Assembly: GCA_036377595.1 (NCBI GenBank)
Contig: DASUYB010000103.1
Span: 1-64,000 of the forward strand
Source: Longimicrobium sp.
Lineage (GTDB): Bacteria > Gemmatimonadota > Gemmatimonadetes > Longimicrobiales > Longimicrobiaceae
Direction of reading: 5' to 3'
DNA length: 64,000 nucleotides
Under the pieces are notes generated by a model. The model did no database searches, was not told where the DNA came from, and saw only the letters and a list, made by a program, of their open reading frames with translations. A program made the translations under genes and the position numbers. Shown in pieces: positions 29,157-56,223 of this stretch (within the stretch, counting starts at the first letter, position 1; every line of letters starts with the position of its first letter).

Positions 29157-29762
29157 ATGAACATCACCTCCCCCACCGGCGTTGCGGAAGACGTGCCGCC
29201 GCCCGCGACCATCGAGATCCCCAGCCCCATCGTGGGCTCCCTGGACCGCTCGGCCTCGGTGGAAGAGGACGAGTTCATGAGCGACTACCTGTGGGCGGTC
29301 AACGGCTACATCAACGACCACGTGCGCTTCTCCGACACCAAGGCCGGCTCGGTGATCGTGCTCTCCGGCGCGCTGCTCAGCCTCCTCTACGGCGGCGGGG
29401 TGCAGCGCATGTTCGCCGCGCGGACGTTCGGCGAGTGGACGATCAGCTCGGTGGCGGCGCTGCTGGCGTTCCTCTGCCTGGGCGGGAGCGTGCTGACCGC
29501 CGCATGGTCCATGCGCCCGCGGCTGGTGCGCATCCACTCCACGGGCTTCATCTTCTGGGAGGGCGTGCTGGCCCACGGCTCGGCCGACGCGTTCGTGCGC
29601 TCGGTGGCCGGCCAGTCGCGCCAGCAGCTGATCGACCACCTGGCCATGCAGATCTACCACGTGAGCCTGGTGTGCAGCCGCAAGTTCCTGTGGGTGGCGC
29701 GCTCGATCCTGCTCTGCCTGGCCGGCGCGCTCCTGGCCGCCGCCGTGCTCGTGGCGCGCTGA
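29157..29762 (+). CDS. PycTM-like (DUF5706) transmembrane protein
   Basis: 201 residues. A disordered Pro-rich start is followed by DYLWAVNGYINDHVRFSDTKAGSVIVLSGALLSLL, typical of the Pycsar effector / DUF5706 family, then a second membrane segment (about 100-120), a helical part, and a C-terminal transmembrane helix. In Pycsar anti-phage defence such proteins disrupt the membrane when activated by cCMP or cUMP. No pyrimidine cyclase gene is in the window, so either it is an orphan effector or it has another role. Convergent with rsgA across hairpin P7. Confidence 0.65.
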   Translation: MNITSPTGVAEDVPPPATIEIPSPIVGSLDRSASVEEDEFMSDYLWAVNGYINDHVRFSDTKAGSVIVLSGALLSLLYGGGVQRMFAARTFGEWTISSVAALLAFLCLGGSVLTAAWSMRPRLVRIHSTGFIFWEGVLAHGSADAFVRSVAGQSRQQLIDHLAMQIYHVSLVCSRKFLWVARSILLCLAGALLAAAVLVAR

Positions 29763-34809: not shown

Positions 34810-35586
34810 CTATGGCTGCGGCGCCGGCGGCGCGGCGGCGCCCGTCAGCTCGTTGATGCGGCGCTGGATCTGGGGGTTGTTGGGCGACTTCTGCTGCGCC
34901 ATCCGATAGCGGACGAGCGCCTTGTCGCGCTCGCCGCGGGCGCGGTACACCTCGGCCAGCTCGAAGTCGACCTGCCCGGAGTTGGGATAGAACTCGGCGT
35001 TCAACTCCAGCAGCGCCACCGCCTCGGCCGTCTTCCCCTGCGCGGCCAAGCGCCGCCCCAGCTCGTTCAGCGTGGTCTCGCTGAAGTCGTAGCGCCCCGA
35101 CGCCAGCGACGACTCGCGCAGCTGGCGGTACCGCGCGACGGCCGCGGGCGCGCCGCCGCTGTCCAGCGCCGCCGCCAGCACGCGGTCGAGCGTGGTGGGG
35201 ACGGGGAGCCCGCGATGGCAGGTGATGCACCCCACGCCCACCGGCGGATTGCGGCGATGCGGAACCTGCGGCAGCACCTGCGCGTTCAGGTTCTGCGTCA
35301 TCCGCATCATGAAGCGCGCCTTCTCCTTCGCTGGCTTGTCGTCCGACGCGAAGTTCAGCTGCTCGCGCCCGCCGGGCTGCGCGGGCTCCCGCTCCACGTG
35401 GCAGTAGTTGCAGCGCACCCCCAGGCTCATCGCGAAGCCGCGCATAATGGCCACGAGCGAATCGCGCGGGATGTCGCGCGGCAGCACCTTCAGGTTCTCG
35501 AAGCGCTCGGGGATCTGCGCGGCCAGCGGCTGCGCGGCGAGCACGGCGGCGAACGGCACCAGCGCGAGCGGACGGATTCGGCGCAT
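34810..35586 (-). CDS. Di-haem c-type cytochrome with TPR tail
   Basis: Exported protein of 258 residues. A Sec signal (LALVPFAAVLAAQPLAAQ) precedes a segment like the photosynthetic-reaction-centre cytochrome family (ENLKVLPRDIPRDSLVAIMR), with haem sites CNYCH (59-63) and CITCH (120-124); Met in FAMSLG and MMRMTQ may be axial ligands. The C-terminal third has TPR-like helices (EAVALLELNAEFYPNSGQ, DKALVRYRMAQQKSPNNP). Two haems instead of the four of reaction-centre subunits, so a general periplasmic electron carrier is likelier than photosynthesis. Confidence 0.85.
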   Translation of the reverse strand: MRRIRPLALVPFAAVLAAQPLAAQIPERFENLKVLPRDIPRDSLVAIMRGFAMSLGVRCNYCHVEREPAQPGGREQLNFASDDKPAKEKARFMMRMTQNLNAQVLPQVPHRRNPPVGVGCITCHRGLPVPTTLDRVLAAALDSGGAPAAVARYRQLRESSLASGRYDFSETTLNELGRRLAAQGKTAEAVALLELNAEFYPNSGQVDFELAEVYRARGERDKALVRYRMAQQKSPNNPQIQRRINELTGAAAPPAPQP

Positions 35587-52400: not shown

Positions 52401-53759
52401 ATGCCCGCTTCGCTTTCCGAGCACGAGCTGATCGACCAGGAGGCGCGCCTGCGCCGCGCCAACGAGGGCTTCGCCCGCCGCTATCCCGGCGAGGGCGGCG
52501 CGCGCCAGCCCGTGCACACCGTGTACGGCGGCGCGCAGCTCTTCCGCTCCGATTCCACGGTGAAACTGGGCCAGGTAGCCCGTCGCGCGCTGGCCGAATA
52601 CGCGCCCGATCCGGAGACGCTCGCCGCCGCGGTGGGGATGGCCGGCGGGGCTTTCGCCGAGCGCGTCTACGCCCGCGTGGTGGAGAAGCTGGAGCGCGAG
52701 CCGGTGGAGGACTTCCGCATCGACTTCGAGGACGGCTACGGCAACCGCCCCGACGCCGAGGAGGACGGCCACGCCGAGTCCGTCGCGCGCGAGGTGGCCA
52801 AGGGGCTGTCCGAGGGCACGCTCCCGCCCTTCCTCGGCATCCGCGTGAAGACGCTCAGCGAGGAGCTGCGCGGCCGCAGCGTGCGCACGCTCGACCTCTT
52901 CCTCACCACGCTGGTGCGGGCGACGGGCGGCGCGCTCCCGCCCAACTTCGTGCTCACGCTCCCCAAGGTGGCGCTCCCCGAGCAGGTGGACTTCTTCGGC
53001 GACGTGCTGCAGGCGCTGGAGCCGCGGCTGGGGCTCTCCACGGGGACGCTGAAGTTCGAGATCATGGTCGAGGTGCCGCAGGCCATCATCGGCGCCGACG
53101 GCCGCTGCATGCTTCCCGACCTGGTCCGTGCCGGCGAGGGGCGCATCACCGCCGCGCACTTCGGCACCTACGACTACACGGCCGGCGTGGGGATCACCGC
53201 CGCGCACCAGCACATGCGCCACCCCGCGTGCGATTACGCGAAGCACGCGATGCAGGTCTCCCTCGCCGGCACCGGCGTCTGGCTCTCCGACGGGTCCACC
53301 ACGGTGATGCCCGTCCCCGTGCACCGCGCCGCTCCCGACGGGCCGCCGCTGACACCGCAGCAGCAGGCGGCGAACCGCGAAAGCGTGCACCGAGCGTGGA
53401 AGCTGCACTACGACGACGTGCGCCACTCCCTGGTCGGCGGCTTCTACCAGGGGTGGGACCTGCACCCCGCGCAGCTTCCCACGCGCTACGCCGCCGTGTT
53501 CGCCTTCTTCCTCGAGAGCGTCGATTCGGCCGGCGCGCGGCTCAAGAACTTCGTGGAGAAGGCCGCGCAGGCCACGCTCGTCGGCGACGTGTTCGACGAC
53601 GCGGCCACGGGGCAGGGACTGCTGAACTACTTCCTGCGCGGCATCAACTGCGGCGCGCTGACCGAGCAGGAGGCGCTGGAGATGACCGGGCTCACCCTCG
53701 ACGAGCTGCGCGGCCGCTCCTTCCTCAAGATCCTCAACGGTCGCCGCCTGCTCGGCTGA
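52401..53759 (+). CDS. DUF6986 aldolase-like (HpcH/citrate-lyase fold) protein
   Basis: 452 residues. The core resembles a TIM-barrel lyase of the citrate lyase beta/HpcH group: DFRIDFEDGYGNRPDAEEDG (acidic metal site), VLTLPKVALPEQVDFF, FEIMVEVPQAIIG and GRITAAHFGTYDYTAGVGI. Matches the DUF6986 family, sometimes labelled aldolase; reaction not established. Twelve bases after a nucleoside deaminase gene, so a joint role in purine or nucleobase catabolism is a reasonable hypothesis. Confidence 0.75.
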   Translation: MPASLSEHELIDQEARLRRANEGFARRYPGEGGARQPVHTVYGGAQLFRSDSTVKLGQVARRALAEYAPDPETLAAAVGMAGGAFAERVYARVVEKLEREPVEDFRIDFEDGYGNRPDAEEDGHAESVAREVAKGLSEGTLPPFLGIRVKTLSEELRGRSVRTLDLFLTTLVRATGGALPPNFVLTLPKVALPEQVDFFGDVLQALEPRLGLSTGTLKFEIMVEVPQAIIGADGRCMLPDLVRAGEGRITAAHFGTYDYTAGVGITAAHQHMRHPACDYAKHAMQVSLAGTGVWLSDGSTTVMPVPVHRAAPDGPPLTPQQQAANRESVHRAWKLHYDDVRHSLVGGFYQGWDLHPAQLPTRYAAVFAFFLESVDSAGARLKNFVEKAAQATLVGDVFDDAATGQGLLNYFLRGINCGALTEQEALEMTGLTLDELRGRSFLKILNGRRLLG

Positions 53760-53900: not shown

Positions 53901-54248
53901 ATGCGCAAGGTCCGGCTGAACCTCGACGCGCTGCGGGTGGAGTCGTTCGACACCTCGTCCGACGCGGCGCGCCCGCCTCGCGGCACCGTGCACGCGCGCG
54001 GCGTGATCGCCGAGCCGTACTCCCAGTTCCAGCAGTGCGGCTCGTATCCCAACTGCCCCAGCCCGCTCTGTGTCGACACGCCGCTGGCCAGCTGCGACGG
54101 CAGCTGCGCGTGGACCTGCGGCGACAGCTGCAACGGCACCTGCAACTCCTGCGTGACCTGCAACACCTGCCAGGAGAGCTGCAACGGCACCTGCTACCTG
54201 TGCATCCCGCCGGACCCGCAGATCAACGGCGTCTACGTCGGCGGCTGA
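53901..54248 (+). CDS. Cys-rich RiPP-like precursor peptide 1
   Basis: 115 residues. The start RKVRLNLDALRVESFDT is a leader of the LxLxxLxVESF-T kind used by lanthipeptide-type precursors in Bacteroidota and Gemmatimonadota. The remainder carries 14 Cys in short loops with Thr and Ser (CDGSC, CNGTC, CNSC, CNTC) and ends in INGVYVGG. No signal peptide. GGAGA lies eight bases ahead of the ATG. A second precursor with a matching leader lies 223 bases away, convergent. No modification enzyme or transporter is in the window. Confidence 0.68.
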   Translation: MRKVRLNLDALRVESFDTSSDAARPPRGTVHARGVIAEPYSQFQQCGSYPNCPSPLCVDTPLASCDGSCAWTCGDSCNGTCNSCVTCNTCQESCNGTCYLCIPPDPQINGVYVGG

Positions 54249-54266
54249 AGTCCTTGAACCGATAGG

Positions 54267-54299
54267 GTTTGGGCGTGTTGGGCGCCGAGACGCCCAAAC
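54267..54299. terminator. Hairpin after precursor 1
   Basis: Perfect 10-bp stem (GTTTGGGCGT / ACGCCCAAAC) 18 bases past the stop of precursor 1. No U-tract follows on the plus strand. Confidence 0.5.
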
Positions 54300-54345
54300 G
54301 GGCTGCGCGCGCCGTAGGCCACGATACCGCTGTGGCCAACGGCGC

Positions 54346-54381
54346 CGGGCCCCCGGCGGGTTCGTCACCGCCGAGGGCCCG
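54346..54381. terminator. Second hairpin between the two precursor genes
   Basis: 14-nt arms (CGGGCCCCCGGCGG with CCGCCGAGGGCCCG, one mismatch) around an 8-nt loop, in the middle of the gap between the convergent precursor genes. Confidence 0.5.
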
Positions 54382-54471
54382 TCTCGATGATCCCGCATCC
54401 GCGCCGCCGCCCCGCCGGGGTCCCGGCCCTCCGGGCGCGCATCCCTCACGCAGCGGCGGGGCCGCGGTCGC

Positions 54472-54738
54472 TCACGCGGTGCATTGCGCGGTGCACTCGT
54501 AGCACACGGGGTAGCCCGAGTCGCAGGTCTGGCCGCTACACTGATAGCACACGGGATACCCCGAGTCGCAGCTCGTTCCGCCGCAGGTGGCCGGGTAGCC
54601 GCAGCTCGCCTCGGGCGTGGTGTCGAAGCAGAACCGGGTGGCGTCGTTCGCGACGACCGTCCCGTTCTCATCGTCCGCCCCCTGCGTCTGGAAGGGCTCC
54701 ACGACGAGCTTCTCGGGGTCCAGCCGGAGCTTCTTCAT
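54472..54738 (-). CDS. Cys-rich RiPP-like precursor peptide 2
   Basis: 88 residues. Leader KKLRLDPEKLVVEPFQT is aligned with that of precursor 1 (LxLxxxxLxVExF-T). The core carries 10 Cys and a near-perfect tandem repeat TCDSGYPVCYQC / TCDSGYPVCYEC. ATG 54738 is preceded by GGAGAGA; the frame is open further upstream without the leader. Convergent with precursor 1. Whether the Cys residues become lanthionines, thioether or disulfide links cannot be told from sequence. Confidence 0.68.
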   Translation of the reverse strand: MKKLRLDPEKLVVEPFQTQGADDENGTVVANDATRFCFDTTPEASCGYPATCGGTSCDSGYPVCYQCSGQTCDSGYPVCYECTAQCTA

Positions 54739-54963: not shown

Positions 54964-56223
54964 TCAGTACCATCCCGCCGGGAGCTGCCTCACGATGACG
55001 CGCTCCACGTCGTCGGCGTCGCGCTCCAGGTACACGGCGCGGCCGGTGGCGCTGATCGCCACGGGAAGCTTCGTCCCGTTCAGCGTCCCCAGGTAGCGCC
55101 CGTCCGGCGTCACCAGGTCGATGGGGCCGGGATCGCCGATGTTCGCGGGCGTGCGCTCGATCCAGATCTTCCCGGACGGCGTCACCACCATCCCCTGGAT
55201 CGTGCGCACGGTGTCGGCGAACTGCAGCTCGCGCACGCGCTGCTCGATCTGCTCGCGCGACGGTCCCGGCGGCGGCCCCGCCGGCCCGCCCCCACCGCCC
55301 GGGCCGCCGCGCACCACCATGATCATCCCCCGCCCGGACCGCATCTGCTCTCGGACCCGTTCGCGCGCGCGCTCGCGGTCGCGCTCCGTGGGCCGGCGTA
55401 CACGCACGGGGCGCTGGATCCAGCGCACGATCCGGCCGCCCGGGTCCAGCACCTTCACCGTGTAGAGCTGCGTGTGGGTCAGCGCCACGCCGCCGTTCGG
55501 CAGCACCCCCCACAGCGTCAGCGGCGAGAACTCCGGCGGCCCGGTGATGCGGAAGTCGAACTGCCCGGGCCCGCTCGACCGCGTCTGCGCTACCATGTTG
55601 TCGGGAATCTCGAACAGCCGCGCCGTGCTCCCCGCGCCCGCCAGGCTCACGCGCGAGAGCACCTGGCTCTGCGGCAGCGAGCGGGTGTTGCGCAGCGCCT
55701 GCGGCGTCATCATCCCCAGTCCCGGGCGAAGCATGGCCAGCACGCCGCCGCGCGGCTCGGGTGCCAGCACGCGGCCGGGAAAGCCCCACTCGGGCCGCAT
55801 CGGCACCGTGCGCCGGAACGCGCCGTCGGCCCCGAAGAGGGTGAAGTTCTGGTGGGCCATGTCCAGCACCGCCACGCTCCCGTCCGCAAGGATCGAAAGC
55901 GCGGTCGGCACCTCCAGCTCGCCCGGCCCGCCGCCCTTCTTCCCCAGCTGCCGCACGAAGCGCCCGTTGCGGTCGAACACCAGCACGCGCGCGTTGCCGC
56001 GGTCCAGCACGTACAGGTTGTCGGCGCGGTCGAACACGGCCTGCTCGGCGTTGTTCAGCATCTCCCAGCTGCGCTCTTCCATCGTGCCGATGCCGAACAC
56101 GGTGGTGATGCGGCCGCCCAGCGGCCGGTCGCGCTCGGGAAGCCGCACCACGCGCTGGGCGTGCGCGGAGGCGGCCGCCAGCGCGAGCGCCGCCGCCGCG
56201 ATTCCTGACGTTCGCAGGGACAT
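54964..56223 (-). CDS. Secreted six-bladed beta-propeller protein
   Basis: 419 residues with a Sec signal (GIAAAALALAAASAHAQ). Propeller blades are visible as NAEQAVFDRADNLYVLDRGNARVLVFDRNGRFVRQLG, VPTALSILADGSVAVLDMAH and later GMVVTPSGKIWIERTP, typical of the 6-bladed NHL-like fold. A charged and Gly/Pro-rich insert (about 275-330) breaks the propeller. Likely periplasmic binding protein; ligand unknown. Runs towards the RiPP precursors on the same strand as precursor 2. Confidence 0.75.
   Translation of the reverse strand: MSLRTSGIAAAALALAAASAHAQRVVRLPERDRPLGGRITTVFGIGTMEERSWEMLNNAEQAVFDRADNLYVLDRGNARVLVFDRNGRFVRQLGKKGGGPGELEVPTALSILADGSVAVLDMAHQNFTLFGADGAFRRTVPMRPEWGFPGRVLAPEPRGGVLAMLRPGLGMMTPQALRNTRSLPQSQVLSRVSLAGAGSTARLFEIPDNMVAQTRSSGPGQFDFRITGPPEFSPLTLWGVLPNGGVALTHTQLYTVKVLDPGGRIVRWIQRPVRVRRPTERDRERARERVREQMRSGRGMIMVVRGGPGGGGGPAGPPPGPSREQIEQRVRELQFADTVRTIQGMVVTPSGKIWIERTPANIGDPGPIDLVTPDGRYLGTLNGTKLPVAISATGRAVYLERDADDVERVIVRQLPAGWY

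Follow-up and report, generated by a model that had tools for sequence, protein, structure and literature searches.

Two convergent cysteine-rich peptide genes of Longimicrobium sp. belong to a genome-wide, leader-sharing precursor family that is probably matured in trans by a split-LanB lanthipeptide system

We present an analysis of two small genes of Longimicrobium sp., P1 and P2, which encode cysteine-rich peptides with a common leader and different cores. The genes are convergently oriented and lie in the window analysed, namely the first 64 kb of contig C103, between a gene for a DUF6986 enzyme and a gene for a 6-bladed beta-propeller protein. The features of the locus are the following:

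52401-53759: DUF6986 enzyme gene, one neighbour of the pair
53901..54248, + strand: P1, lanthipeptide-type precursor gene, an open reading frame of 115 aa with 14 Cys
53901..53999, + strand: P1 leader, MRKVRLNLDALRVESFDT...RGTVHAR, with LxLD, LxVESF and GTV motifs and no Cys
54000..54245, + strand: P1 core, holding all 14 Cys of P1
54060..54098, + strand: conserved head of the P1 core, SPLCVDTPLASCD, identical in the related genomes G286 (two copies) and G032
54090..54194, + strand: periodic [ST]Cxx[ST]C stretch, 6 units in the P1 core where 0.07 are expected after shuffling
54267..54299, no strand: inverted repeat between P1 and P2, 15-nt arms, 87% complementary
54472..54738, - strand: P2, precursor gene, an open reading frame from the ATG at 54738, 88 aa with 10 Cys
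54475..54645, - strand: P2 core, holding all 10 Cys of P2, with the motif SCGYPxTCGGTSCDSGYPVCYQC
54489-54533 and 54534-54578, - strand: tandem direct repeat of 45 nt in P2, copies 78% identical
54646..54738, - strand: P2 leader, MKKLRLDPEKLVVEPFQT...NGTVVAN, with no Cys
54964-56223: 6-bladed beta-propeller gene, the other neighbour of the pair

The initial annotation had described the pair as reading frames with one leader and two different Cys-rich cores, and this description is confirmed by the open reading frames themselves and by a leader profile that was built without either peptide. With P1 and P2 excluded from training, P1 scored 49.5 bits and P2 36.8 bits, the maximum on reversed DNA being 9.5 bits. 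Both genes have the GC3 expected of coding sequence, and their ribosome-binding sites are G-rich, like those in the rest of the family. The inverted repeat between them, which has no T-run, is possibly a terminator common to the two genes. No sigma-70-like promoter site was detected at the pair, and a shared promoter was rejected, the alignment of upstream regions yielding only the ribosome-binding site and a C-rich stretch. Homology to a structural or metal-binding protein family would have counted against the interpretation as precursors of ribosomally synthesized and modified peptides (RiPPs) that was first proposed for P1 and P2, and no such family, nor Nif11, was matched in Pfam and NCBIfam scans of the two peptides; the only match was to the NCBIfam pinensin leader model (NF038180), where P1 reached 13.7 bits against a cut-off of 24 and P2 had no match. 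Elsewhere in the window, the Pycsar effector transmembrane domain (PF18967) was recognized in a protein encoded at 29157-29759 on the + strand, and a match to the photosynthetic reaction centre cytochrome c family (PF02276) lies at 34813-35586 on the - strand, with no photosystem gene among the window genes scanned.

The leader of P1 and P2 is shared by a large number of other peptides in the same genome. Our main profile, A2, is an alignment of 70 leaders gathered around NCBIfam pinensin-leader matches, from which P1 and P2 were left out; searched against the whole genome, it returned at least 150 matches, every one with E<4e-8, and found P1 with E=3.8e-13. The NCBIfam model itself gives nine matches above its cut-off in the whole genome and more than 100 weaker ones. 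In the 864 kb of own-genome DNA that was scanned, at least 221 precursor reading frames carry the family leader at 10 bits or more (reversed DNA: 0), and the count is a lower bound for this reason. The leader has ~31 residues and the pattern M[KR]KLxLDxxxLxVESFxT...GTVxAx; an LxLD-like motif is present in 219 of the 221 leaders, and LxLD is known to vary on FxLD, the motif recognized by the RiPP recognition elements (RREs) of lanthipeptide enzymes (PMC12710340). The 221 precursors are spread over 103 loci on 56 contigs, and only 13 of them lie within 10 kb of any modification machinery. The assembly consists of 208 contigs, with 96% completeness and 4.8% contamination, and contamination is an unlikely cause of the expansion because the same kind of expansion recurs in independent relatives. 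Such leader-sharing paralogues in related genomes, whose absence would have spoken against the initial annotation, are thus present, and they are plentiful here; its interpretation of the pair as RiPP precursors is supported, while the chemistry remains unproven.

No RiPP modification enzyme was recognized by Pfam among the 33 other window proteins scanned, in agreement with the first description of the locus as lacking such an enzyme nearby; this part of the description does not hold for the contig as a whole, which carries a full class I lanthipeptide operon at ~89-105 kb, outside the window and 34-51 kb downstream of P1 and P2. The search for LanB and LanC genes that had been proposed at the outset was therefore positive. 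In the operon LanB is split into a glutamylation and an elimination protein, and the other genes encode LanC, ten precursors, an ABC transporter, HlyD and an S8 protease, arranged on C103 as follows:

~89-92.5 kb: LanB-N (PF04738, 5.5e-41)
92449-93480: LanB-C (PF14028, 2.4e-42)
to ~95.6 kb: LanC (PF05147, 8.7e-51)
95694-100560: ten operon precursors
101085-102896: ABC transporter
102995-104215: HlyD
~104254-104991: S8 protease

LanB-N and LanB-C are separate genes, and the nearest named LanB-C is that of a Gemmatimonadetes MAG. P1 and P2 are not clustered with LanB or LanC, being ~34 kb from the operon, and other members of the family are inside it. LanB-N, LanB-C and LanC are conserved across the genomes with expanded families, beside leader-bearing precursors, and the transporter, HlyD and the S8 protease are conserved in those related loci that are long enough to include them.

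The WCHG and LCHG motifs are retained in LanC of all orthologues, and the C103 LanC carries in addition a C-terminal extension of 250 residues. Its predicted model (pLDDT 81.5) is matched by Foldseek to TglI-type proteins, NGO1945, PqqD and leader-bound TbiB1/lasso B1, and weak sequence matches to the PqqD, NGO1945_C and HvfC models were found as well. A sequence search of the PDB with the extension gave no match, so that the likeness emerged only by fold search. On the strength of the predicted fold, and without binding data, we infer that this domain may serve as a leader-binding RRE. The extension is present in all LanCs of the C103 type and in more distant ones, namely those of genome G169, of Acidobacteriota and of a Gemmatimonadetes MAG, and is absent from the type encoded on C98, where a second, diverged split-LanB set is located.

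Several other loci with related genes were noted. Next to the second split LanB on C98 (18824-19400; L057) are two precursors with diverged leaders, one with a core made almost purely of CSNCSDC-type repeats (17 Cys in 90 aa), and a similar CSGCSGC peptide adjoins the LanB of the related genome G251. A precursor from Acidobacteriota (L212, 10940) combines the family leader with a core of TCGSTCGSTCGS repeats containing 18 Cys and lies beside a split LanB and an RRE-fused LanC; an Ignavibacteria MAG (L214, 14862-16900) has six leader-related precursors in a split-LanB locus, three of them with the near-identical tail PTMxQTPIPCxx. A second S8 protease, 57% identical to that of the G032 operon, adjoins two near-identical small precursors on a contig of 4.3 kb (C131; L070). 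A LanC match on C145 was rejected as a partner of the family since it belongs to a RamC-type synthetase of class III whose leader is another one; there (61-65 kb; L059, 9034-13000) the synthetase is followed by several short peptides that combine ENVLDLQSFDE-type leaders with SCVSVPSC repeats. A LanB match on C1 adjoins NRPS-type genes: the LanB N-terminal-like domain at 12.8-14.7 kb (L036, L078) is near an ABC transporter and an apparent NRPS condensation protein, no LanB-C match was found on C1, and the locus is a possible hybrid cluster. A transporter with a C39 peptidase was also considered as the leader protease and rejected; the genome has three, none of which adjoins the operon, the transporter of the operon is without this domain, and the S8 protease is conserved instead.

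The leader and the split LanB occur together across genomes. Among 395 genomes of the phylum, a leader match was found in 12 and LanB-C in 20; 11 of the 12 leader-positive genomes have both, and the single one without LanB-C is a partial weak match. A leader match in G250, which is partial and inside a 1583-aa frame, was rejected. The 15 members of the bacterial family in this sample divide into eight with leader and split LanB-C and seven with neither. In a set of 21 genomes of the bacterial family, the eight whose LanB-C is at least 54% identical to that of C103 carry from 11 to more than 200 leader peptides (at E<=1e-6, at least 150 in G312, 136 in G286, 73 in G032, 55 in G243, 41 in G224, 15 in G399 and 11 in G180; the eighth is the present genome with its at least 221), and each expanded genome has one set of the C103 type. 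The association between leader and LanB-C is strong; it cannot be stated as a formal probability because common ancestry inflates the counts. Genomes of other bacterial families with small repertoires (G169, G167 and G068) have the leader peptide directly adjoining the split-LanB genes, and for this reason the scatter of the precursors looks like a derived state.

These data bear on the question of which enzymes modify P1 and P2. The peptides could be leader-guided RiPPs that are modified by some other set, for example the C98 split LanB or an enzyme of the YcaO, radical-SAM or DUF692 type, with products other than or beyond lanthionine peptides. In favour of this reading, C98 encodes a second set of LanB-N, LanB-C, LanC and S8 protease, the RRE-like domain of the C103 LanC most resembles the TglI/HvfC-type partners of DUF692 enzymes, and the NCBIfam label for LanB-C is 'thiopeptide-type'. 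However, the expansion tracks the C103-type set, which is present in all eight expanded genomes, whereas G251, with only a C98-like set (LanB-C 34% identical to that of C103), has one leader peptide, and the C98 precursors have a diverged leader that scores only 18.5-18.8 bits. We consider modification of P1 and P2 by another set unlikely, although which precursor is acted on by the C103 set and which by the diverged set on C98 is not settled.

A second question is whether the scattered copies are functional at all. Most of them, perhaps including P1 and P2, could be decaying or unexpressed relics of duplication, in which case only the ten operon precursors would matter. The fairly high dN/dS of 0.78 between P1 and its orthologue in G286 is consistent with decay, as is the second, truncated P1-like copy in G286. 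Against decay, the reading frames are open and preceded by ribosome-binding sites throughout the set, with an ATG start in 95%, and the conserved Cys of P1 are retained: the orthologues in G286 and G032 are 71% and 58% identical overall and 68% and 49% in the core, yet they keep 14/14 and 13/13 of the aligned Cys, respectively. Between a C163 member of the P2 subfamily and its counterpart in G312, dN/dS is only 0.12. Leaders outside the operon are also as good as those inside; a profile trained only on precursors within split-LanB clusters of other genomes gives P1 46.2 bits and P2 42.9 bits, and the medians for own-genome precursors, 43.8 inside the C103 operon vs 41.1 for the rest, are indistinguishable (p=0.52). 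Taken together, we find it quite improbable that most scattered copies are relics. One operon core is identical between species despite a core dS of 0.34, and the genes flanking P1 are not common to the pieces of G286 and G032 examined.

Cysteine accounts for 0.2% of residues in the leaders of the 221-member family and for 15.6% in the cores. Relative to each Cys, Ser and Thr are twice as frequent at positions -5 and -1, and there is an enrichment at +3 as well, a pattern characteristic of [ST]Cxx[ST]C repeats; the cores contain 147 of these units, compared with 8.2 +/- 2.8 after shuffling. The P2 core has none of these tight units and follows a different, equally conserved design, which is also found in three tandem paralogues on C163 and in six relatives from two genomes (G286 and G312). 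A duplication within P2, as suggested by the initial annotation, is borne out by these nine sequences; each has a single unit, and because all relatives carry one unit, the second unit of P2 is a true duplication. That the cores are not thioether-cyclised at all but are disulfide-rich or metal-binding miniproteins, the N-terminus being a tag for export or maturation, is suggested by how rich in Cys the cores are (some have more than 10), in the absence of mass spectrometry, and we consider it very improbable, given that the leader on direct reading lacks a Sec-type hydrophobic segment, that P1 and P2 match no structural or metal-binding family, that 97% of cores have at least as many Ser plus Thr as Cys, that at fixed core length the number of Cys climbs with Ser/Thr (partial r=+0.37; Gly/Pro -0.28), and that the members of the bacterial family without LanB-C are also without leader peptides.

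We conclude that P1 and P2 are most probably precursors for a pinensin-type lanthipeptide pathway, of class I with a split LanB, whose enzymes act in trans, and assign this interpretation a probability of about 0.8. Two observations weigh against it: the P2 core is devoid of tight [ST]Cxx[ST]C units, and neither peptide reaches the cut-off of the pinensin leader model. The genes, the common leader, the composition of the cores, the content of the operon, the co-occurrence and the RRE-like fold are computational observations; action of the C103 enzymes on P1 and P2, the formation and pattern of lanthionine rings, removal of the leader behind the GTV region, export, and whatever biological activity the products have are inferred. 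In the proposed pathway the leader would be bound by the leader-recognition domains of the modification enzymes, and the split LanB would dehydrate Ser and Thr of the core by glutamyl transfer followed by elimination. LanC with its fused RRE-like domain would then close thioether rings by addition of Cys thiols to the dehydro residues. Leader removal would fall to the conserved subtilisin-like S8 protease, and export to the ABC/HlyD pair. The C103 enzymes are encoded once for the expanded family and would serve all of its precursors in trans, at least 221 of them at 103 loci. Processing in trans, which had been proposed from the pair alone, is supported by the LanB/LanC set elsewhere on the contig, again as an inference rather than a demonstration.

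The system resembles two known types of lanthipeptide biosynthesis. Pinensin biosynthesis uses a split LanB (PMC7268733), as does the C103 system, and nine members of the family in this genome exceed the cut-off of the pinensin leader model. The C103 LanC is closest to LanM-type cyclases, and the same has been reported for the LanC group of the pinensin-containing precursor family (PMC7268733). The large number of scattered precursors and the leaders of P1 and P2, which stay under the cut-off of the pinensin model, set the present system apart, as may the RRE-like LanC extension. The prochlorosins of Prochlorococcus and Synechococcus likewise comprise numerous precursors with a common leader, which occur singly or in tandem at various places of the genome and are served by one promiscuous synthetase (ProcM), and the numbers and placement of the precursors described here reproduce the genomic side of this pattern; that one set serves them all is inferred. 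In contrast to the system described here, which is class I with a split LanB, a separate LanC and an S8 protease, prochlorosins are class II, with a LanM enzyme, a Nif11-type leader and a GG cleavage site. The largest comparable set found in the literature searched is of this kind, the highest prochlorosin count given in PMC10783134 being 83 precursors in one Synechococcus strain. The LanC extension is similar in fold to stand-alone or fused RREs (TglI, NGO1945/DUF2063, PqqD and lasso B1), here fused to a lanthipeptide cyclase, and keyword searches of two RRE surveys (PMC12710340, PMC7470986) gave no mention of an RRE-cyclase fusion. Longimicrobium terrae was reported to have three lanthipeptide-containing clusters and no such precursor family (PMC7291104), and no report of the family was found in open-licence papers on lanthipeptides or RiPP precursors of Gemmatimonadota or Longimicrobiaceae. 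New elements are thus the size of the family, its scatter and the RRE-LanC fusion, while the family as such is of the pinensin type and, as the NCBI leader model shows, already known in part.

Viewed across the genome, the family is likely to represent a combinatorial library in which over 200 Cys-rich cores depend for maturation in trans on one split-LanB system with an RRE-bearing cyclase, and in which cores diverge and repeats duplicate while the leader stays fixed. Within class I it would correspond to the prochlorosins, at more than twice their number, and would be the largest precursor library reported in the literature searched. Genome mining restricted to the surroundings of LanB and LanC would miss ~94% of its members. 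If this interpretation is correct, a single lineage has assembled hundreds of lanthipeptide cores into a natural library with one leader and one enzyme set, and extreme substrate tolerance could be put to the test in a class I system, with the cyclase-fused RRE as a possible reason for it.
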